Positions 13,515-33,870 of a DNA stretch of 33,870 nucleotides are shown here, piece by piece (positions within the stretch are counted from its first letter, which is position 1; every line of letters starts with the position of its first letter). Under the pieces are notes generated by a model. That model searched no databases and was not told the DNA's origin. It saw nothing but the letters and a program-made list of their open reading frames with translations. The position numbers and the translations under genes are program-made. The DNA comes from Caldilineales bacterium (GTDB lineage Bacteria > Chloroflexota > Anaerolineae > J102): NCBI GenBank assembly GCA_026417535.1, contig JAOADB010000008.1, forward strand, positions 1-33,870. The letters are read 5' to 3'.

Positions 13515-13575
13515 GGTTGGTAACGGGTGACTGGTGATTTGGTTACTGGTTACTAGTAACCAGTAACCAGTTACT
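13513..13575. repeat. TTACTGG-family repeat containing a 30-bp perfect palindrome (13540-13569)
   Basis: TGGTTACTGGTTACTAGTAACCAGTAACCA between ftsK start and the 3' end of the next gene. Confidence 0.85.
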
Positions 13576-15478
13576 TGTTTTCCGTCTCAGCGGCAGCCGC
13601 TTCCATTTCGGCCAGCGTCCGCGCCACCTGGCTGATGGCCACGCGCTGTTTGCGGTAGAGGTCCGATTCGCTCATGGCCAAACGGTGGGCCACCTCGCGC
13701 ACCCGCTTGCCTTGGATGAACTTGAGGTCCAGAATGTTGTACAGCAGCCATTCCGAAGTGGTCATCTGCCGTTCGCCGGGCGGTCGCTGCCGTTCGATGG
13801 CCGCCTGGAGCACGGCGCGCAGGGCGCGGATGGGCGAGTTGTCGTATTCGGCCAGGCGTTGGCGTACCACGCGCAGGCCCAGGAGCGGGCTTTCGCTCAG
13901 TTTGGGGCCGCCCCAGAAGTCGCTGAGCGCGTCGCGCACCCAGTCGGTGAATTCGGGCGCAGCCGGCAGGGCGGTCGTGGGCTTCTCGGTTGGGGTGATC
14001 ACGTAAGGGATGGTGCCGCGCAGGGCCTGCATGGCCTCGATTTCGGGCAGGATCGGCCGCAGGGCCTCGAAGACATCGAGCTGAAGGCGGCGGTCCTCGA
14101 CGGCGATCTCGGCGCGACGCAACAGGTGCTGAATGGTCGGATCGGCGTCCAACGCGGCCGGCGACACGCCTTCTTCCGGCGCCCGCAGGGCCACGATGCC
14201 CATCACCTCGTCGGTATGCCGGTTGATCAGGGGGCAGATCAGGTACGAATCCACGCGGACGAATCGGCTCGTGGGTTCGGTGGTGGTGAGGAGGACCTGC
14301 ACTGCGGGCAAGGAGAGGATGCGCCGGGCTTCCTGCTCGTTGCCCAACACCGCCTCCAACCGGGCGCCGGTCTCGCCGGGCAGAGCGACAAAACCATCCC
14401 CCACCTCGAGGGCATCGGCTAGGGCGATGAGGACGTTTTCCAGGAACTGGCTCAGGTCGCTGCTGGTCATCAACCGCGTTTCCAGTGTCCGCAGCCAGAG
14501 CACCTCTTCGCTTTCGTGGCGGTAGATCAGCCGGTCAATCCAGGGTTGGAGCACCTGAAAGGCCAGGGGCGCCAGGACGATGACGGCGACGACGAAGAGG
14601 GCCAGGGCCGTGTAGGGCGGCAGACCGAGGATGGCTTCGACCTTGGGCACGGTCAGGATGAGGCTGACGACGATGACGGCCACAAACGGCCCCCGCAGCA
14701 AGAAGTAGACCAGCTGGCGTTTGACCACCCGGTCGGGCGAGAGCACGCCGTAGTAGGCCACGCTGTAGGCCATGACGACGAGCAAGATGCCTACGGCGAT
14801 GTTGGCGACGCTGGCCAACAGGAGCACCAGCGCCGGGTCGGCCTTACCGGCGCTGGGCGCCAGCACCAGGTAGGGGAACACCCCCAGGGCCGGCGCGGCA
14901 AAGCTCCAGAGCAGATAGCTCAGCCGCCGTTTCGAGGCTTGCGAACGCACATGCTGTCGGGCGCGCAGCAGCGTCCAGCCGCCCCACAGGGTGGCGATGA
15001 CGAAGTAGAAGGTGAAGGGCAGAAAGAGCGGCCCCGGTCGTAGATAGGTCACCGGAAAGGCGCCGATGGGCGGTTCCACGAGCACATCGGTCGCCAACGC
15101 CAACACGGCAAATGCCGCGCTCAGGGCATAGGCTGCTCGCCCCAGCCAGATCCAGCGACGGCGCTCGCTCTGCAGCCAGGTGGCCAGCAGGACGCTGCGC
15201 GTGAAATGGAAATAGGCAGCCGGCACCAGGGCAATGCCCAGCCATTGGAACCGCAGCCACCACTCCTGCCACTCGACACGCGGCAACACCACATCGCCGC
15301 TATAGACGATGATGACGCCCAAAAGCAGGGCAGCAAAGGACCGTCCCACGCGGCTGTGGAGATTGAAGGTGAGGATATAAGCGAAGAGGGAGAAAGCCAG
15401 GATGAGGATGGCCGAGGCCAGGACCAGGTTGATCAGCTCGACCAGACTCAACCAGTCGGGTAAGGGGATGGTGGGCAT
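13571..15478 (-). CDS. Membrane sensor/regulator: N-terminal 7TM-like region, GAF-like middle, C-terminal HTH-like region; no kinase domain apparent
   Basis: Multiple TM helices in the first ~300 aa; ALADALEVGDGFVALPGETGARLEAVLG GAF-like; C-terminus MTTSEWLLYNILDLKFIQGKRVREVAHRLAMSESDLYRKQRVAISQVARTL looks like an HTH. No HisKA H-box or HATPase N/G boxes seen. Confidence 0.65.
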   Translation of the reverse strand: MPTIPLPDWLSLVELINLVLASAILILAFSLFAYILTFNLHSRVGRSFAALLLGVIIVYSGDVVLPRVEWQEWWLRFQWLGIALVPAAYFHFTRSVLLATWLQSERRRWIWLGRAAYALSAAFAVLALATDVLVEPPIGAFPVTYLRPGPLFLPFTFYFVIATLWGGWTLLRARQHVRSQASKRRLSYLLWSFAAPALGVFPYLVLAPSAGKADPALVLLLASVANIAVGILLVVMAYSVAYYGVLSPDRVVKRQLVYFLLRGPFVAVIVVSLILTVPKVEAILGLPPYTALALFVVAVIVLAPLAFQVLQPWIDRLIYRHESEEVLWLRTLETRLMTSSDLSQFLENVLIALADALEVGDGFVALPGETGARLEAVLGNEQEARRILSLPAVQVLLTTTEPTSRFVRVDSYLICPLINRHTDEVMGIVALRAPEEGVSPAALDADPTIQHLLRRAEIAVEDRRLQLDVFEALRPILPEIEAMQALRGTIPYVITPTEKPTTALPAAPEFTDWVRDALSDFWGGPKLSESPLLGLRVVRQRLAEYDNSPIRALRAVLQAAIERQRPPGERQMTTSEWLLYNILDLKFIQGKRVREVAHRLAMSESDLYRKQRVAISQVARTLAEMEAAAAETENK

Positions 15479-22990: not shown

Positions 22991-23010
22991 TGTCCTACCT
23001 TTGTAGGACA
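22991..23010. other. Perfect 8-bp-arm dyad overlapping the galK stop
   Basis: TGTCCTAC CTTT GTAGGACA; galK TAG stop falls inside it. Confidence 0.6.
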
Positions 23011-24137
23011 ATCGTAGCGCCGTCGGCGGCCTGGGTGATGGTGATGTTCGGCTCCAGCCCGGTAGCGGCCCGATAAGCGGCCGCCACATGGGCGGCAAAG
23101 GCATCGGCCTGTTCGGCCTTGACCAGGGCGACGGCGCAACCGCCGAAGCCGGCGCCGGTCATGCGCGCGCCCAGACAGGCAGGATGGGCACGGGCCAACG
23201 TAACCATCGTATCGAGGGCGGGGCTGCTCACCTCGAAGTCGTCGCGCAGGCTGGCGTGGCTGGCGTCCATCAGCCGGCCCAGCGTGAGGGCATCGCCCGC
23301 GCGCATGGCAGTCACGGCGGCCAGGGTGCGAGCGTTTTCGGTGATGACATGCCGCGCCCGGCGGCGGATAACCTCGTCGAGCTCGTGGCCGCGGGCGGCC
23401 AGGTCCGTCTCGCTCACATCGCGCAGGGCCGGGACGCCGAAATGGCGGGCTGCGGCCTCGCATTGGTGGCGTCGCTCGTTATAGGCCGAATCCACCAGGC
23501 CGCGGCGGGTGGCCGTATCGAGGATGACGACTACCACCCCTTCCGGCAGGGGCACGGGTTGGGTTTCCAGGCTGCGGCAATCGATGAGCAAGGCATGGCC
23601 GCGGCGGCCGGCCGCCGCGATCATCTGGTCCATGATGCCGCAGCGGACGCCCACCCAGGCGTTTTCGGCCCGCTGGCCCAAACGGGCCATGGTCGCGGGT
23701 TCCCAGGCAAAGTCGGACACGACCTGGAAGGCCCGCGCCGTGGCCAACTCCAGCGCGGCCGAGGATGAGAGGCCTGCCCCGCGGGGTACATCGCCCGCCA
23801 GGACGCCCTCCCAGCCGCGCAGGGCATAGCCGGCCTCTTGCCAGGCCCAGGCCACACCCTTGAGGTATTCCGCCCAACCGCGCTCCCGACGCAGGTCGGT
23901 CAGGTCGAACTCGGCCCACTCCCCCAGGTCGAGGGCCAAAACCCGCACCCGGCCGTCCGACCGCGGGCGTAAGGCGATCCACACGGCGCGTTCGATGGCC
24001 ATGGGTAGGACGAAACCGTCGTTGTAGTCCGTATGTGCGCCGATGAGGTTGACCCGACCCGGCGCGCGCACGACGACGTCCGGTTCGGCGCCGAAATGTT
24101 CAGCAAAAGCAGCAGTCACGCGAGGGAGAAGCGACAT
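22995..24137 (-). CDS. galK: Galactokinase
   Basis: RAPGRVNLIGAHTDYNDGFVLPMAIE, VPRGAGLSSSAALELA, GVRCGIMDQMIAAAGRRGHALLIDCRSLE, ARMTGAGFGGCAVALV. Confidence 0.96.
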   Translation of the reverse strand: MSLLPRVTAAFAEHFGAEPDVVVRAPGRVNLIGAHTDYNDGFVLPMAIERAVWIALRPRSDGRVRVLALDLGEWAEFDLTDLRRERGWAEYLKGVAWAWQEAGYALRGWEGVLAGDVPRGAGLSSSAALELATARAFQVVSDFAWEPATMARLGQRAENAWVGVRCGIMDQMIAAAGRRGHALLIDCRSLETQPVPLPEGVVVVILDTATRRGLVDSAYNERRHQCEAAARHFGVPALRDVSETDLAARGHELDEVIRRRARHVITENARTLAAVTAMRAGDALTLGRLMDASHASLRDDFEVSSPALDTMVTLARAHPACLGARMTGAGFGGCAVALVKAEQADAFAAHVAAAYRAATGLEPNITITQAADGATIVLQR

Positions 24138-24342: not shown

Positions 24343-25374
24343 ATGGCCACCATCCGCGATATCGCCAAGAAAGCTGGTGTTTCGGTAGCCACCGTTTCCT
24401 ATGTGATCAACGGTGGGCCGCGTCCGGTGGCGTCCGCCACACGCGAGCGGGTGCTTCAGGCCATGGAGGAGCTGAACTATCATCCGAACACATCGGCCCG
24501 ACAGCTGGCCCGACAGCGCACTGAGGCCATCGGGGTGGCCATTGCTGGCTTGGGCGAGGATAACTTCTCGAGCGCTTACTTTCTGGAATACATCCGCGGC
24601 ATCAGCTATGCCGCCGAGATGAATGGCTACAATGTCTTGCTCCTGACCAATCAACGTAAAACGGATGGGCTGGTCTTTTATCGGGCGATTGCTCGCTCAC
24701 GGTTGGTGGATGGTCTGCTCTTTCTCGGCAGCTCGATCCCCGACCCGGCGGTGATCGCGCTGGCGCGGGAAGGTTTTCCGGTGGTGATGCTGGCGCGCCA
24801 TATTCCCGGACATGTCGTTTACAGCGTCGAGCAGGACTATTACCAAGGCGCCTACACGGCCACACGCCATCTTCTGGAACGTGGCTATCGCCGGATCGGT
24901 TTTCTCGGCCAGGCCCTCTGTTTCAATTACGGCATCGAGCGCCTGCAAGCCTACCGCCAGGCCTTGAGCGAAGCCCAGGTGCCGTATGAGCCTCGGTGGG
25001 TGAGCATTCCCGAAACGCCCCGCGACAATCCGACCCCGGAGGAAGTTGCGAGCCTGCTCGCCGCTGGCGTGGAGGCGCTTTTGACCGACCGGGAGGCAGT
25101 GGTGTTGGCTCATTTGCGGGCGTTGGGCAGGCGCGTCCCGGAGGATGTGGCCCTGGTGGGTTTGGATGAAAGCGAGCTGGGCGCCGTTCTGGAGGTGCCG
25201 TTGACAACGGTGCGTCCCCCCAAGTTCGAGGTCGGCAAACAGGCTGTCGAGATGCTTCTCCGACTCATCGCCGGTGATCCGCCGGCCACACAACAGGTTC
25301 GTTTGCCAATGGAGCTGATCGTGCGCCAATCGAGTCCTCCTCGCCAGCGCTTAGGGCGCGAGGAGCCCGTGTAA
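24343..25374 (+). CDS. LacI family transcriptional regulator
   Basis: MATIRDIAKKAGVSVATVSYVINGGPRPVASATRERVLQAMEELNYHPNTSARQLARQRTEAIGV; periplasmic-binding-like core. Confidence 0.96.
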   Translation: MATIRDIAKKAGVSVATVSYVINGGPRPVASATRERVLQAMEELNYHPNTSARQLARQRTEAIGVAIAGLGEDNFSSAYFLEYIRGISYAAEMNGYNVLLLTNQRKTDGLVFYRAIARSRLVDGLLFLGSSIPDPAVIALAREGFPVVMLARHIPGHVVYSVEQDYYQGAYTATRHLLERGYRRIGFLGQALCFNYGIERLQAYRQALSEAQVPYEPRWVSIPETPRDNPTPEEVASLLAAGVEALLTDREAVVLAHLRALGRRVPEDVALVGLDESELGAVLEVPLTTVRPPKFEVGKQAVEMLLRLIAGDPPATQQVRLPMELIVRQSSPPRQRLGREEPV

Positions 25375-25411
25375 AGCCGTTCTTCTCCGTCCCCCAAATT
25401 TTTTTGCAATG

Positions 25412-25430
25412 TGATCTAACCGGTTAGATT
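25412..25430. promoter_or_regulatory. LacI-family operator upstream of the ABC transporter operon
   Basis: GTG ATCTAACCGGTTAGAT (16-bp perfect palindrome at 25415-25430); TTGCAA at 25405 and TAGATT at 25426 suggest it overlaps a promoter. Confidence 0.82.
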
Positions 25431-25540
25431 TGTACCGAACGAAAAGGAGGTGGTTGAACGGACAAAATCCCAATGTCTTAACACAAAAACAGTTTTTGTT
25501 TGGTCTATCCGCTCACTCTGCACAACCTGGGAGGTCCATC

Positions 25541-26950
25541 ATGAACCACAACTGGCCACGTCTCCTGCTCGGGCTCCTTTTCGTCAGCCTGGTTCTGGTT
25601 GCCTGTGCGCCGCCGGCGACTCCGGCGCCGACGCCGACGCCTCAGATCGTGGAACGAACCGTGGTCGTGCGGGAAACGGTCGTGGTGCCGGCGACGGTCG
25701 TCGTTGAAAAGGTCGTCACGCCGACGCCTGAGCCTCCGCCGCCCGCTCCCTTTGCCGGAGTGACGCTCACCCTGATTGATAATCCTGAGGGTCAGAGCGA
25801 TAGCATGATTGCGCTGCAAAACCGTTGTCAGGAAAAAACGGGTGTGCAGCTGAAGGTGGAAGTGGTGCCGCATGAGGAGGTCAATACCAAACTGGAGGCC
25901 GCGCTGGCTGCCAAAGCCTCGACCTACGATCTGTTTGCCATTGACATCATTGACTTGGCGAAATACGCGGCCGCCGGGTGGGTCTTGCCTCTGAATGCCT
26001 ATATCACGCCCGAGATCGAGGCCGATATTCTGCCCTTCGCCCGCCAGGGTGTCGTGTATCAAGGCCAGTGGCTCGGTTTGCCCTGGAAGGCGGAATGGAT
26101 GTCCTTCGTCTACAATAAAAAGATGCTGGAAGACGCAGGATATGACCATCCGCCGCGCAGCTGGGATGAGCTGATCGAGATGAGCCTGGCCCTCAAGCAG
26201 AAGGGCATCGTCGAATACCCGATGATCTTCAGCTGGGCCGCCGGTTACGAGCAGATCACGGTGGATTACGTGATGTTGGTCTCCAGCCTGGGCGGTCAAT
26301 TGTTCGACAAGGATGGCCAACCGATCTTCAATCAGGGCGAGGGGGTCAGGGCATTGCAGCTCATGTACGACATGATGAACAAGCACGAGATCGTGGATAA
26401 GGCGGCGCTGACCATCCGCGGTGGCGGCACCCGGCGCGATATCGCTCTGGCCGGCCAGGGCGCGTTCGTTTTCCTCTGGGGTACGCCGCTCCTAGTCATG
26501 AACGATCCAGCCAAGAGCGAACGGGCCGGCCAGTTTGCCATCGCTCTGGCGCCCAACGGCGGTGGCGGCCCGTACTCGGTGGCCGGGCCGATGGGGTGGT
26601 CGGTGACAGCCTACACCCGCCATCCCGATGCCGCCTGGGCCTTCGTCCAATGCCTTGCCGGTCCGGAGGGCGAGAAGTTCATGTTCCTGAACGAGGGCGC
26701 GCCCCCGGGCTGGAAGAGCGTGATCAACGACCCGGAGGTGGCCGTCAAGCTGAAAGAGGCCGGCGGCGATGTGATGGCACAACAGGCGCTCTTCCTGGCC
26801 GTGCGGCCGGCCCTCCCCTATTACGCGGAATGGTCGGCAGCCATCCAGGAGGCGGTGCATTTCGCCCTCACCGACCAGAAGACCGTGCAGCAGGCTCTGG
26901 ACGATGCCGTGGCCATTACGCGTGAGCTGCAGGCCAAGTACGGTCCGTGA
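25541..26950 (+). CDS. ABC transporter substrate-binding lipoprotein (carbohydrate type)
   Basis: Lipobox LVLVACAPP, linker VVERTVVVRETVVVPATVVVEKVVTPTPEPP, then a type-1 sugar SBP fold (YDLFAIDIIDLAKYAAAGWVLPLNAY..., LPWKAEWMSFVYNKKMLEDAGYDHPPRSWDEL). ATG 25541 preceded by gggaggtccatc. Confidence 0.92.
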   Translation: MNHNWPRLLLGLLFVSLVLVACAPPATPAPTPTPQIVERTVVVRETVVVPATVVVEKVVTPTPEPPPPAPFAGVTLTLIDNPEGQSDSMIALQNRCQEKTGVQLKVEVVPHEEVNTKLEAALAAKASTYDLFAIDIIDLAKYAAAGWVLPLNAYITPEIEADILPFARQGVVYQGQWLGLPWKAEWMSFVYNKKMLEDAGYDHPPRSWDELIEMSLALKQKGIVEYPMIFSWAAGYEQITVDYVMLVSSLGGQLFDKDGQPIFNQGEGVRALQLMYDMMNKHEIVDKAALTIRGGGTRRDIALAGQGAFVFLWGTPLLVMNDPAKSERAGQFAIALAPNGGGGPYSVAGPMGWSVTAYTRHPDAAWAFVQCLAGPEGEKFMFLNEGAPPGWKSVINDPEVAVKLKEAGGDVMAQQALFLAVRPALPYYAEWSAAIQEAVHFALTDQKTVQQALDDAVAITRELQAKYGP

Positions 26951-26973
26951 ATGGCGGGTGCCCTCGTCGTGAT

Positions 26974-27010
26974 CGTAGTGCAGGTGGCGAACCAAGCCAC
27001 CTGCACTACG
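26974..27010. other. Perfect 15-bp-stem hairpin between SBP and permease genes
   Basis: CGTAGTGCAGGTGGC GAACCAA GCCACCTGCACTACG. Confidence 0.9.
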
Positions 27011-27033
27011 GTGGGCTCATCCGGGCTGCGATA

Positions 27034-28014
27034 ATGTCGCAAGTCACCCATCCTGTTGTTGAACGCGCGGAACAGGTGATGGAACAAGGCGCACTTTCTT
27101 ATCCGAAAATACTGTATAAAAAGAGAATAATTTTTTCGCCGAGATTTATCGGATTTTTATTCATTTTGCCGTCTATTGTTGTTATTTTTAGTTTGTTATT
27201 TTATCCACTTATTTATTCAATTGTTATCAGTCTATACGATCTTCATGTCCGCGCGCCGTGGATGGGTTGGGAGTTTATCGGATTAGGCAACTATTGGCGG
27301 GCCCTTACCGACAGTCAGGTTCGGCTATCCATCGGCCGGACCCTTTATCTGGCCGGCGTCGGTATCGGTCTGGGCATTCCGCTGGCCTTGGCCTTTGCCC
27401 TCATCCTCAATCGTCCTTTTCCGCTGCGTGGGCTGGTACGGGGACTGTTGATCATTCCCTGGGTTGTGCCCGGTTCGGTGCAGGGCTTGCTATGGGGACG
27501 CATTTTCGATCCGCACGGGTATGGCGCGCTGAACGGCCTCTTGCTCCAGTTCGGCCTGATTGACAAGGCCATTCCCTGGTTGTTGATGCCCCAGCGCGCC
27601 TTGTTTCTGATCGCCCTGGCCAATTTGTGGGCGACCATACCGATGATGACCCTGTTGTATCTGGCAGGGTTACAAAGCATTCCCTCGGAATTGCACGAGG
27701 CCGCCGCCGTGGACGGCGCCGGTTGGTGGGCCCGGTTTCGTTATATCACCTTTCCCCTGTTGTTGCCGATCACGCTGATCAACCTGATTTTGAAGACCAT
27801 CGACGCGTTTGCTCTTTTCGACCTGGTCTTCGTGCTTACGGGGGGTGGCCCAGCCCGGGCAACCGAGGTGATAGGCTACCATCTCTACAAACAGGCCTTT
27901 AGCAACCTCGAATACGGCTATGCTGCGGCACTGGCCTGGCTGATCGCACTGGCCAACATGGCGCTTGCCTATCTGTACAGCCGTCTGACGCGACCGGAAA
28001 CGATAGGAACATGA
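27034..28014 (+). CDS. Sugar ABC transporter permease (MalF-like)
   Basis: FIGFLFILPSIVVIFSLLFYPLIYSIVISLYD; EAAAVDGAGWWARFRYITFPLLLP (EAA motif). ATG 27034 preferred over 26947. Confidence 0.94.
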   Translation: MSQVTHPVVERAEQVMEQGALSYPKILYKKRIIFSPRFIGFLFILPSIVVIFSLLFYPLIYSIVISLYDLHVRAPWMGWEFIGLGNYWRALTDSQVRLSIGRTLYLAGVGIGLGIPLALAFALILNRPFPLRGLVRGLLIIPWVVPGSVQGLLWGRIFDPHGYGALNGLLLQFGLIDKAIPWLLMPQRALFLIALANLWATIPMMTLLYLAGLQSIPSELHEAAAVDGAGWWARFRYITFPLLLPITLINLILKTIDAFALFDLVFVLTGGGPARATEVIGYHLYKQAFSNLEYGYAAALAWLIALANMALAYLYSRLTRPETIGT

Positions 28015-28916
28015 AACCACCCTACAACCCCTCAGCGATGGGCCGCTCCGTGCGTCGGGTAGGCCAAGGGCTGCTCCAAACCCTGTTGGTGCTGGCCGTT
28101 CTGGCGTTCATTCTGTTGCCCATCCTCTGGTTGCTCATCAGCAGCCTTTCTCATAGCCAGGACCTGTTGCGCATCCCACCGCGCTGGTTGCCCTGGCCCC
28201 CTGATTTCTCGCACTATCGGGAATTGCTCGTGGGAACCGGCCAGACGGGCACCACACTCACCCAAGTGACCCTGCGCGCCTTCCGCTATGCCTTGCGGAA
28301 CAGTTTCCTCGTGGCCGCTGGCGTGAGCCTGACGGCGTTGGCCCTGGGTTCGTTGGCCGGATATGCCTTTGCCCGTTTTCGCCTGGTGGGTGGAGCGCAG
28401 CTGATTTACATCTTGCTGTTGGTGCAAATGCTCCCGGTCATCGTGTTGCTGATTCCGCTGTACATGACGATGAACCGCCTGGGAATGCTGGACAAGCTCA
28501 GCACGGTCATCGCGTTGCTTTCGGCGTATCATATGCCTTTCGTGATCTGGATTTTGCGGGGTTATTTTCAGAGCATTCCGGCGGAACTGGAAGAGGCCGC
28601 CCTGGTGGATGGGGCCAATCGTCTGCAGGCGCTTGTGCGCGTGACGTTGCCGCTTTCATTACCGGGCCTTTTTGCCGCAGGCGTTTACACGTTCATGCAG
28701 AGCTGGAACGCTTTTATGATTCCGCTCATCTTCACCTCCAGCGATACGATGCGCACCGTGACCGTTGCCATTGCCTTGTTTGTCGGTCGTCACTATACCG
28801 AGTATGGCCTGATGAGTGCGGCCGGTGTGCTGGCGAGTCTGCCCCCCATTCTCCTGGCCATTTTCTTCCAACGGTACCTGTTGGCTGGGCTGACGGCTGG
28901 CGCTACGAAGGGTTAA
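28011..28916 (+). CDS. Sugar ABC transporter permease (MalG-like)
   Basis: ATGA overlap; NSFLVAAGVSLTALALGSLAGYAFARFRL; EEAALVDGANRLQALVRVTLPLSLPGL (EAA motif). Confidence 0.95.
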   Translation: MKPPYNPSAMGRSVRRVGQGLLQTLLVLAVLAFILLPILWLLISSLSHSQDLLRIPPRWLPWPPDFSHYRELLVGTGQTGTTLTQVTLRAFRYALRNSFLVAAGVSLTALALGSLAGYAFARFRLVGGAQLIYILLLVQMLPVIVLLIPLYMTMNRLGMLDKLSTVIALLSAYHMPFVIWILRGYFQSIPAELEEAALVDGANRLQALVRVTLPLSLPGLFAAGVYTFMQSWNAFMIPLIFTSSDTMRTVTVAIALFVGRHYTEYGLMSAAGVLASLPPILLAIFFQRYLLAGLTAGATKG

Positions 28917-28957
28917 GTGGGGTGTCGTTGCGTGGTTTCGCCGAGCAGGAGGGAACG

Positions 28958-30424
28958 ATGAGCGCGCCTTCGACGACCGGGCAATTGAGTTTGTGGCGTA
29001 AAATCGGCTACGGCCTGGGGGACATCTTCGGGGGTGGTTCGGGTGTCATCATCAGCTTTTACTATCTCTACTTTCTGACCGATGTGGTGCGCATTCCTCC
29101 CGGTCTGGCCGGCACGGTTATCCTGGTCAGCAAGATTTATGATGCCATCACCGATCCTCTCGAGGGCCTCCTTGCCGATCGGACACGCACGCGGTTGGGC
29201 CGTCGTCGTCCCTATTTGCTGGCCGGTATTCCTTTGATCTTTTTGTCGTTTTGGGCGTTGTTTTATCCAAGTGATCTGCCCCAGGAGTGGCAACGTTTTG
29301 CTTTTGCTTTGTTCTCGTATCTGTTCTTTTCGACCGTGATGAGCATTGTCATGCTCAACTACACGGCATTGCAAGCCGAACTGACATTGGATTACCACGA
29401 GCGGGCAACACTGGTCGCTGTTCGTATCTTTTTCTCCACGTTGGCTTCGATTGCCGGCGCCGTTTTGCCGTTGGAAATCGTGCGGCGCTTTCCGGATGTC
29501 TATCAAGGGTATCGGGTCATGGGTTTCTTCTTTGGTCTCGTGTTTGCGCTTCCTTTCGTCGCCACCCTGCTGGCCACCCGCGAGCGCCCTGAGTTCCAGC
29601 GTCCAGCCGCGCCGTTGGCCTGGCGGCGGACGTTTCTCTTTCCGTTCCGTGTGCGGGTCTTCGTCTATACCCTCTTGATGTATCTGCTCGCCTTTGTGAG
29701 CATGGACGTCGTGAGCGGTATTGTCATCTACTTCATGAAGTACTACCTGGGGCGTGGGGAAGAAACCCAGTTCGTCAGCGGCACCCTGTTGGTGACCCAA
29801 GCCCTTTCCTTGCCTGTTTACCTCTGGCTCAGTCGGCGCACGGCCAAACATATCGGCTACGCCGTGGGTGTTCTCATCTGGATGGTCATGATGCTGGTTA
29901 GCCTGCTCTTTGGTCCGGGCCAACCTTCGTTTCTCGTCTATCTTTTCGCTTTTGTGGTGGGTTTGGGCACAGGCGGCATTGTGGTCATGATCTATGCCAT
30001 CTTTCCGGATATCCCGGATGTGGATGAACTGGTTACCGGAGAACGTCGGGAGGGCATCTACGCGGCCTTGTTTACCTTCACGCGCAAGGTCAGCTCGGCG
30101 CTGGCCCTTTTCCTGGTCTCCCAAGCCCTGGCGTTGGCCGGCTATGCGCCGCCGGTCGAGCACATCGTGAACGGGGTGCGGCAGCTGGTCGAGCAGCCCC
30201 AATCGCCGACCTTTATTCTCACCTTGCGTTTGCTCTTTGCCTTGGTGCCCGTCCTGTTGCTGATGCCCGCGCTCTACCTGGCGTGGCGTTTTCCACTCAC
30301 GCCCCGAATCCACCAACGCCTGCAAACCGTTCTGGAGGGGTACCGACGGGGCGACCCAGAATCGGCTTTTCAGCACGACGAGGCCCGTTGGCTCCGACAG
30401 CACCTGATCGGAGGTCAATCATGA
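28958..30424 (+). CDS. Glycoside-pentoside-hexuronide (GPH/MelB-like) symporter
   Basis: LSLWRKIGYGLGDIFGGGSGVIISFYYLYFLTDVVRIPPGLAGTVILVSKIYDAITDPLEGLLADRTRTRLGRRRPYLLAGIPL. Confidence 0.93.
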   Translation: MSAPSTTGQLSLWRKIGYGLGDIFGGGSGVIISFYYLYFLTDVVRIPPGLAGTVILVSKIYDAITDPLEGLLADRTRTRLGRRRPYLLAGIPLIFLSFWALFYPSDLPQEWQRFAFALFSYLFFSTVMSIVMLNYTALQAELTLDYHERATLVAVRIFFSTLASIAGAVLPLEIVRRFPDVYQGYRVMGFFFGLVFALPFVATLLATRERPEFQRPAAPLAWRRTFLFPFRVRVFVYTLLMYLLAFVSMDVVSGIVIYFMKYYLGRGEETQFVSGTLLVTQALSLPVYLWLSRRTAKHIGYAVGVLIWMVMMLVSLLFGPGQPSFLVYLFAFVVGLGTGGIVVMIYAIFPDIPDVDELVTGERREGIYAALFTFTRKVSSALALFLVSQALALAGYAPPVEHIVNGVRQLVEQPQSPTFILTLRLLFALVPVLLLMPALYLAWRFPLTPRIHQRLQTVLEGYRRGDPESAFQHDEARWLRQHLIGGQS

Positions 30425-32304
30425 CGGTTCGTTTTGGGGTTGGACGGCATCGGCCGATGTACCTATGGGCCGGGCCGGGCACGATTCGGATGAATCGGCT
30501 CAAGTTCATGAACGCGCCGGTGGACGAAGCCGTGCATCAGGAGGCCTACACGGCCGTGGGTGCCCACCGTGTCGTGACCGAAACCGGCTGCAATTGGGTT
30601 TACCTGACGTATGACTGGGGGTTCCCACCCGAAATCGAAGCGCACGATTGGGACGCCTTCCGTCAGGCGGTGGAGGTTTTTCATGCGTACGGCGCGCAGG
30701 TCTTCGGATACATCCAAACGTCGAATTACGTGTTTAGTGGCTCGTTTCGACAGAAAGACTGGTATGCCCGCGATCGCCGGGGACGCCCCTTTTACTACTA
30801 CACGGGGCGCTACATGGCCTGCTGGTTGCATCCGGAATGGCGCCAGCACCTTCGGGCCATGGTACAGGGCGTCATAGCGGCAGGCGCCGATGGCGTCTTC
30901 TTTGACAATCCCTGGTATGGCGCGCAACCGTTTTACTTCGGCAAGACTTGGCTGGGTAGCGCCGGTTGTTCCTGCCAGCATTGCCGAGCGGCCTTCCGCC
31001 AGGCGACAGGGCTGGATATTCCAGGCGAACTCGATCTCCAAACCGAAGCGAGTCGCAGGTACCTGCGCTGGCGGAGCCGGGTCGTAACCGAGACCCTCGC
31101 CGAGATGGCAGCGTATGCCCGTGAGCTGAAGCCGGATGTCGTGATCAGCGTCAACGATTTCGATGCCGTAATGCGACCCAGCTTCATCGCCTTCGGCATC
31201 GACTTGGCGGGTCTGGCCACCGTCCAGGATGTCATGATGATCGAGGATTACGGCTTGCCCCGTTGGGAACCCGGCCACGACAACCGGTCGCCGTTGCTGG
31301 TCAATAACGCTCTGACCCTGCGCACCGCCCGCGCGTGGGTCGGCGCCACGCCGATCAGCACCCTTCCCTATGACAAGGGGATCGGCTTCGATCCGGTCTA
31401 TGAGCCGCGCCGGTTTTTGCAGGCCATGGCCGAAGCCGCCGCGTGCGGCGCGGCCACCGTCATCAAGGGCACCGAGTTCGTGGAGGCCGACGGCACCTTT
31501 ACCCTCCTCACGGCAGCGGCTTATGCTCCGCAGCGAGAGGCCATCGGCCGTTATCATCGCTGGTTGGAAGCCCATGCCGACTTGTACGACTCCGCCAATT
31601 GGGAGAACGCCGCGCCCATCGGCCTCATGCATCCGGGCGATGAGCTGGTATGGCGTTGGCCCGACCTGGCGCGGCGCTACTTCGGCGTGGGCCAAACCCT
31701 GACGGCGGCTGCCCTTCCCTGGCGGGTTGTGCGGACCCCGGAGGAAGGCGCCGGTCTCGCCGTGTTGCTGGATGTGCGCTCCGATGCCGACAGGCTATCC
31801 CCAACCCCGCCTGCCCGAATCGCCGTCGCTACCCTGCCCTTGTGGGGCGACGAACGTCCCTCGCCGTTGCAGCGTTGGCGGTGGGCTCGCCGCCTGGCCG
31901 GTGGTGTGCTCGAAGCGCTTTACCGTGCCTACTTTGAACGCCGTTGGGCGCGCCGTCTCATAGACCGCATCGGCCTAGTCCATTTCTTCCTACAAGCGCC
32001 TTACTTTCGTCTACCCCCTCTGCAGGCGCGTACGCATTTGCTCCAGGCTCTCGGGTCCGTCCCCGGCCCGCGTGTACGCGCCGAGGCGCCCGTCTTGGTG
32101 GAGCTGTGGCGACAGCGCCAAAGCGGAGAAATGGCCCTCCACCTGGTCAATTACGCTCCGACCCCTCAAACCGTTGCTGTGACCCTGCCTCGGGCAGGGT
32201 CTGTGCGCCTGCTCTCGCCAGATAGCCCAGAAAGCGGCGTCATACAGACCGACTCCCTCGCTTTTCTTTTGGATATCTACACCGTTCTGCTGATCCAGGC
32301 TTGA
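30421..32304 (+). CDS. Putative glycoside-hydrolase-like TIM-barrel protein, unassigned family
   Basis: ATGA overlap with symporter gene; NWVYLTYDWGFPPEIEAHDWDAFRQAVEVFHAYGAQVFGYIQTSNYV, VIAAGADGVFFDNPWYG, CSCQHCRAAFRQATGLD, MMIEDYGLPRWEPGHDNRS; C-terminal beta-like region. Confidence 0.65.
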   Translation: MTVRFGVGRHRPMYLWAGPGTIRMNRLKFMNAPVDEAVHQEAYTAVGAHRVVTETGCNWVYLTYDWGFPPEIEAHDWDAFRQAVEVFHAYGAQVFGYIQTSNYVFSGSFRQKDWYARDRRGRPFYYYTGRYMACWLHPEWRQHLRAMVQGVIAAGADGVFFDNPWYGAQPFYFGKTWLGSAGCSCQHCRAAFRQATGLDIPGELDLQTEASRRYLRWRSRVVTETLAEMAAYARELKPDVVISVNDFDAVMRPSFIAFGIDLAGLATVQDVMMIEDYGLPRWEPGHDNRSPLLVNNALTLRTARAWVGATPISTLPYDKGIGFDPVYEPRRFLQAMAEAAACGAATVIKGTEFVEADGTFTLLTAAAYAPQREAIGRYHRWLEAHADLYDSANWENAAPIGLMHPGDELVWRWPDLARRYFGVGQTLTAAALPWRVVRTPEEGAGLAVLLDVRSDADRLSPTPPARIAVATLPLWGDERPSPLQRWRWARRLAGGVLEALYRAYFERRWARRLIDRIGLVHFFLQAPYFRLPPLQARTHLLQALGSVPGPRVRAEAPVLVELWRQRQSGEMALHLVNYAPTPQTVAVTLPRAGSVRLLSPDSPESGVIQTDSLAFLLDIYTVLLIQA

Positions 32305-32325
32305 AACTCTCGAAAGGAAATCGAG

Positions 32326-33851
32326 ATGCGTGCCATTCCTGTCGAGGACGGATCGCTACACGTGGCCATGCCCGATGCGCAGACGCGCTACGATATGGGA
32401 AATCGTCGGCTGTTTGTCACGTTCAACGGCAAAGGCGACGTGACGCGCCTGTTGTTGCCGGCGGGCGTGCATCTTGGCGGCTGGGAGATCACCCTCCGGG
32501 TCGGTGGCGGGGAGGTCAGTTTCACCCAAGCCCGCGCCATCGGCCGTTTGTGGGAACTGGAGGGGGAAACCGGGCCTGTGCAGGTATCGCTCCTATCCTT
32601 TGCCGCCGAGGACGCGGCCGTTTACCAGCAATGCCGGATTGCGAACAAGGGTGCCCGCTCCCTTTCGGCCCATATCATCGTGCGTTTTATCCCGGCCCGG
32701 CCGCTGCCGTGGTCGCAGCGTCTGCGGCCCGAACTGCTGGCTTTGATTCCCCGTTTGCCCGGCCTGAGCTTCCTGTGGAGCCGGGGCTGGGCCAAAGGGT
32801 TGCCACCGGAGAGGGCCAGGCTCCACCTCGGCGATAAGACGACGGTAGCCTTTGTCGCTGCGGAGCGATGGCTGTGGTCAGCCGATCAACCTCCCCAAGA
32901 CGTGCGGCGGGAAGGCGATGTCGTCGTGGTCACCTACACGTTGGCAGTACCAGCCGAGGCGATAACCACGCTCGTCTGGGGCGTATGGCCGGCAGCCGCC
33001 GGCCCGGAGGGGCTTTCGCAATGGCCTCAGGCGTTGGCATCGGCAGAGGCCTATGCCCGCTGGCTCCAGGACCAGGCTGCCTGCCGGGAGCCTTTGCTGC
33101 GCTCGCTGATTGTGGCGGGGATGAACGGCGCCATCAGCACATTCAAAACCTTTGACGGGGATTTTGCCGGCTTTTTGGCCGGCCCGGACTACGCCTACCC
33201 TCCGCGTCTCTACTTTCGTGATGGCTACTGGACGGCGCAGGTTTTGTTGTCGCTTCGCCCCGACCTGGTTCGCCAACACCTGTTGAGTCTGGCGCAAGGG
33301 GTCCATGCCGATGGCGAATGTCCTAGCGGCGTCTTCGTGCCAGGCACCCTTGGCCGCATGCCACAGGGAACACGTCCGGACAAGGCCCGCGACTGGTTGC
33401 CCGCCCACATAGACTCCCCGGCTTTTTTCGTGTTGCTCCTGTGGGACTACGTGCGCTCTACCGGGGATGCGAGTCTTTTGCAGGAACGCGTTCCCCCGCG
33501 CCACCGGCGGCTGTGGGACCTGGCCGTGGCGGCCATCGGCTATCTCCGCCGCTGTGATCGCAATGGCGATGGCCTATTGGAGAAACCCTATCGCCCCAAC
33601 GATTGGGCGGACAATGTGCGCCGCAGCGTTTGGGTGACCTATGACCAAGCCCTCTATGGTGCGGCATTACGGGCTGGCGCCGCGTTGGCCCTGCGGATGG
33701 GGGAAACGACCCGCGTCGAAGCCTATGAGCAAGAGGCGCTCAAGGCCCGCGCTGCGCTCAATCGGCATCTTTGGCTGCCCGACCGCGGGCACTACGCCAA
33801 CTACGTCCGGCCCGGCTACACCGAGGCCCATGTTTCCATTGACACTCTGCT
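32326..33851 (+). CDS. Six-hairpin ((alpha/alpha)6) glycosidase-like protein, 3'-truncated; absent from ORF track
   Basis: Own translation from ATG 32326: MRAIPVEDGSLHVAMPDAQTRYDMGNRRLFVTFNGKGDVTRLLLPAGVHLGGWEI...; YPPRLYFRDGYWTAQVLLSLRPDLVRQHLLSLAQGVHADGECPSGVF...DSPAFFVLLLWDYVRSTGD...CDRNGDGLLEKPYRPNDWADNVRRSVWVTYDQALYGAALRAGA. No stop before the adapter. Confidence 0.75.
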
Positions 33852-33870
33852 CTGTCTCTTATACACATCT
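33852..33870. other. Nextera/Tn5 mosaic-end adapter sequence (sequencing artefact)
   Basis: CTGTCTCTTATACACATCT exactly matches the 19-bp Nextera transposase mosaic end. Confidence 0.97.

Follow-up and report, generated by a model that had tools for sequence, protein, structure and literature searches.

The window analysed here is the whole of contig C460 (33870 bases) of the draft assembly G000, which comprises 3.6 Mb in 482 contigs and is 79% complete. An apparent sugar-use cluster occupies its right-hand part (24343-33851, + strand), with a LacI-type regulator, a solute-binding protein, two ABC permeases, an MFS_2 sugar transporter and a putative glycoside hydrolase (30283-32304, with weak Pfam matches below the cut-off) among its members, and ends in a truncated GH116/GH94-like enzyme. 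Just upstream of the cluster, a galactokinase-like GHMP kinase is encoded on the opposite strand (22995-24137). The mechanically called ORFs of the MFS_2 transporter (28922-30424) and of the glycoside-hydrolase-like protein (30283-32304) overlap by 142 bases. Named homologues of the latter match only from about residue 37-54, so that its true start is probably located further downstream. On the minus strand, a 635-codon open frame (13571-15478) adjoins a gene of the FtsK/SpoIIIE type; this frame had no match in Pfam at an E-value of 0.001. The features that concern us lie at the 3' end of the window:

32326 to 33851, + strand: 3'-truncated, genuine glycoside hydrolase gene with GH116/GH94-related catalytic domains (Pfam PF04685 and PF17167; homologues)
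33843 to 33851, + strand: CACTCTGCT, the last nine genomic bases, the expected place of a Tn5 target duplication (position relative to the mosaic end)
33852 to 33870, + strand: 19-bp Nextera/Tn5 mosaic end, a sequencing adapter to be trimmed (19/19 match; 109 copies in the assembly)
33853 to 33870, + strand: six spurious codons, CLLYTS, on the last ORF (translation; comparison with homologues)

According to the original prediction, the window terminates in a Nextera mosaic end (ME) that adds CLLYTS in frame to the last protein, the whole being a contig-end artefact and not biology. The 19 bases at 33852-33870 (+ strand), CTGTCTCTTATACACATCT, are indeed identical (19/19) to the Tn5 mosaic end, being the reverse complement of AGATGTGTATAAGAGACAG. 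This is the only match in the window on either strand with up to three mismatches allowed, where none is expected, and 100 dinucleotide-preserving shuffles of the window gave no match. The ME forms the literal terminus of the contig, with no base beyond it; the opposite end of the window is without adapter, and a search of the window for TruSeq, i5, i7, P5 and P7 sequences found none. Its GC content is 37%, as compared with about 55-70% for the window. Translation of the ORF 32326-33870 places CLLYTS at residues 510-515, as had been claimed.

Of the 650-685 residues expected for the last gene product, about 508 are present and some 140 are missing. Its homologues (647, 662 and 685 amino acids, with identities of 50%, 47% and 44%, respectively) run 130-150 residues beyond the xLLYGL / AIYFGL point. 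Opposite the tip their sequences are IDTLIAIYFGL, IDTLVTLLYGL and IDTLIVLLYGL, where the window reads IDTLL and then CLLYTS. C33852, the first base of the ME, doubles as the third position of the CTC codon for Leu509 (33850-33852); since any third base of this codon gives leucine, the identity of residue 509 holds provided that C33850 and T33851 belong to the genome. The greater length of the homologues implies that the genome would continue beyond the tip of C460. The last 23 genomic bases of the contig have no second occurrence in the 79%-complete assembly, and a search for the missing C-terminus, run with the carboxy-terminal portion of a homologue and without a positive control, gave no match there. 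The tip of C460 thus stays unbridged, unlike the pair of contigs C50 and C34 described below.

The ME 19-mer occurs 109 times across the assembly, in forward orientation at 58 places and in reverse at 51, and a reversed control sequence had no match in the 482 contigs. We examined 101 distinct junctions out of these 109 copies, namely 100 listed places and the window. All 101 are located at contig tips and point outward, the ME stopping 0-17 bases from the tip; none of them lies inside a contig. The tip coincides exactly with the end of the ME in 89 cases, and 12 tips extend 1-17 bases further. Every one of these 12 extensions consists of adapter bases, eight belonging to the i5 arm (GACGCTGCCGACGA...) and four to the i7 arm (CCGAGCCCACGAGAC...); in four of the 12 the extension amounts to merely 1-2 bases, and an identical i7+CA tail is found at two tips. 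As the i5 and i7 arms differ from the very next base, the exact stops could reflect either an assembler that halted at the branch or arms that were trimmed with the ME left behind. A search of the assembly with only the first 12 bases of the ME gives 116 matches, which indicates that few tips carry a truncated ME. Altogether, the ME caps about 11% of the 964 contig tips of this assembly.

The Tn5 target consensus is GNTYWRANC with flanking A. At 96 junctions, the nine bases immediately preceding the ME have a mean score of 3.36 against this consensus, versus 2.53 (sd 0.12) at random positions of the same sequence, and none of 2000 control draws reached 3.36. This preference is visible only over the 96 junctions together; the window's own junction scores 2 out of 8, no better than background. 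In a weak test, no pair of tips with a complementary 9-bp Tn5 duplication was found among the 101.

One gene split by the adapter was detected at another pair of contigs. C50 at its 3' tip (L017) and C34 at its 5' tip (L010) have 32 genomic bases in common that occur nowhere else in the assembly, and both tips are capped by an outward ME. A scripted join of the two contigs yields a 472-codon open frame that crosses the junction, indicating that a gene was cut there by the adapter. Around the join, a stretch of 152 residues gives a weak PALP (PLP-dependent-enzyme) match, just below the Pfam cut-off, which suggests that the gene divided between C50 and C34 is PLP-enzyme-like. Once trimmed, the two contigs could merge via their 32-base overlap.

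It is virtually certain, in our view, that positions 33852-33870 are an untrimmed Nextera adapter, a technical artefact and not bacterial DNA. The exact match, the tip position and outward orientation, the i5 and i7 arms at other tips, the Tn5 bias and one broken gene in another contig pair were all directly observed. The sequenced DNA was very probably prepared by Nextera tagmentation, whereby Tn5 transposase cleaves DNA and attaches the 19-bp ME to every fragment end. Reads longer than their insert would then have passed through it into the reverse-complemented ME, and from there into the i5 or i7 arm. Adapter removal was probably incomplete, so that assembly of the contig would have proceeded into the ME and halted there because nothing genomic lay beyond.

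The same 19 bases could also be genuine genomic sequence whose match to the ME is fortuitous and which encodes part of the glycoside hydrolase. The peptide is plausible in isolation, as CLLY aligns with xLLY of the homologues and is carried along in the BLAST alignment. However, no match to the ME was expected, 108 more exact copies are present in the assembly with none of those examined inside a contig, TTA is a rare codon in the genes of the window (1.8% of Leu codons), and the TS that follows LLY does not fit the GL of the homologues. With 109 copies, located at tips wherever examined, we rejected this reading as extremely improbable. Laboratory DNA bearing the ME, such as a Tn5 mutagenesis construct or a cloning vector in the sequenced sample, would explain the exact ME too. 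Yet 109 different junctions with i5 and i7 tails are unlike a single construct, and these tails refute the idea. Moreover, the neighbouring gene has its nearest named relatives in metagenome-assembled genomes of Chloroflexota (mostly Anaerolineae), which makes laboratory mutagenesis implausible; the probability of such an origin is practically nil.

A further reading is a natural transposon of the Tn5/IS50 type, at whose end, as a repeated element, the contig would have broken. A repeated insertion sequence would likewise terminate many contigs with one outward-facing sequence, and the target bias of the Tn5 family is present at the junctions. The ME, however, is an engineered hybrid of the IS50 ends OE and IE, and both natural Tn5 ends differ from it, OE by 3 mismatches and IE by 4. 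In addition, the bases past the ME are those of Nextera i5 or i7 and never transposon sequence, the overlap between C50 and C34 is 32 bases and not a 9-bp target duplication, and two congeners are without copies. At a natural end, the 19-mer would be that of OE or IE and would lead into transposon DNA; the i5 and i7 extensions refute such an end, and we give it only a minute probability. The untrimmed adapter accounts for the results of all tests, and nothing contradicts it. The claim that the tail is a contig-end artefact was therefore upheld by the 109 copies, the outward-facing tips, the i5/i7 continuation and the Tn5 bias. The proper annotation is to trim 33852-33870 and to label the last gene as 3'-partial.

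The comparison of the terminal peptide with homologues, which had been advised as a check, turned out to be misleading. Of the six residues coded by the adapter, three (LLY) are shared with two of the homologues, and the BLAST alignment runs to residue 513, so that four adapter residues are aligned as homologous; the next two residues, TS in the window versus GL in the homologues, do not match. When the tail is removed, the Pfam GH116 alignment shrinks from 365-509 to 365-496 and its score drops from 33.3 to 32.2 bits. The likeness of CLLYTS to xLLYGL is due to chance, but because CLLYTS resembles the true continuation, homologue comparison alone is falsely reassuring. The peptide comparison would favour the wrong answer, and the decision rests on the nucleotide and assembly-wide evidence. 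A homology check can thus overlook adapter tails. Read forward, the three frames of the ME give LSLIHI, CLLYTS and VSYTH; as none contains a stop codon, an ORF that enters the ME is always left open and spuriously extended. With the ME at about 11% of the tips, genes located there would carry one of these three false tails. On the minus strand of the window, the ME supplies a false ATG (33868-33870) that opens a frame beginning MCIRD and reaching a stop after 36 codons; elsewhere, such an ATG could create a false gene start. A literature search on the adapter-derived peptides MCIRDS, YTSPSPRD, DVYKRQ and SLIHISEPTRPY found no paper on this artefact.

The ME was detected in 15 of the 200 related assemblies searched (our own included), at contig tips among the matches listed; the same-genus genomes G001 and G002 have no copies. 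It is also present in at least 120 stretches of IMG/VR where, among the matches listed, 125 of 127 copies are no more than 100 bases away from a stretch end and 101 run into i5 or i7. A mid-contig copy occurs at position 2168 of a viral stretch of 4734 bases (L142, IMGVR_UViG_3300000510_000121); this stretch may be a chimera whose parts were joined via the adapter.

Adapter-capped contigs are an already known problem, and no biological novelty is left in the terminus of C460. What may or may not be new, with about equal probability, is only the extent of the phenomenon: 15 of 200 drafts and at least 120 IMG/VR stretches, with false tails in public databases that can be mistaken for homology. 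Its importance is one of data hygiene only. The terminus is the same as the Nextera/Tn5 mosaic end in 19 of 19 bases, with i5 or i7 continuation at 12 other tips, and we found no difference between the two. Adapter remnants at the ends of contigs from published microbial genomes were described by Moeller et al. (2024, BMC Genomics 25:1033; PMC11536531), who found adapters concentrated at contig ends (forward) and contig starts (reverse complement), sometimes extending into forward- or reverse-specific adapter sequence, and who could merge contigs after adapter removal. Their counts in MGnify genomes concern the TruSeq 12-mer AGATCGGAAGAG, and Nextera is absent from the main text. The assembly studied here resembles theirs in having adapter at contig tips that sometimes continues into the specific arms, and differs in that the adapter is the Nextera ME instead of the TruSeq 12-mer.
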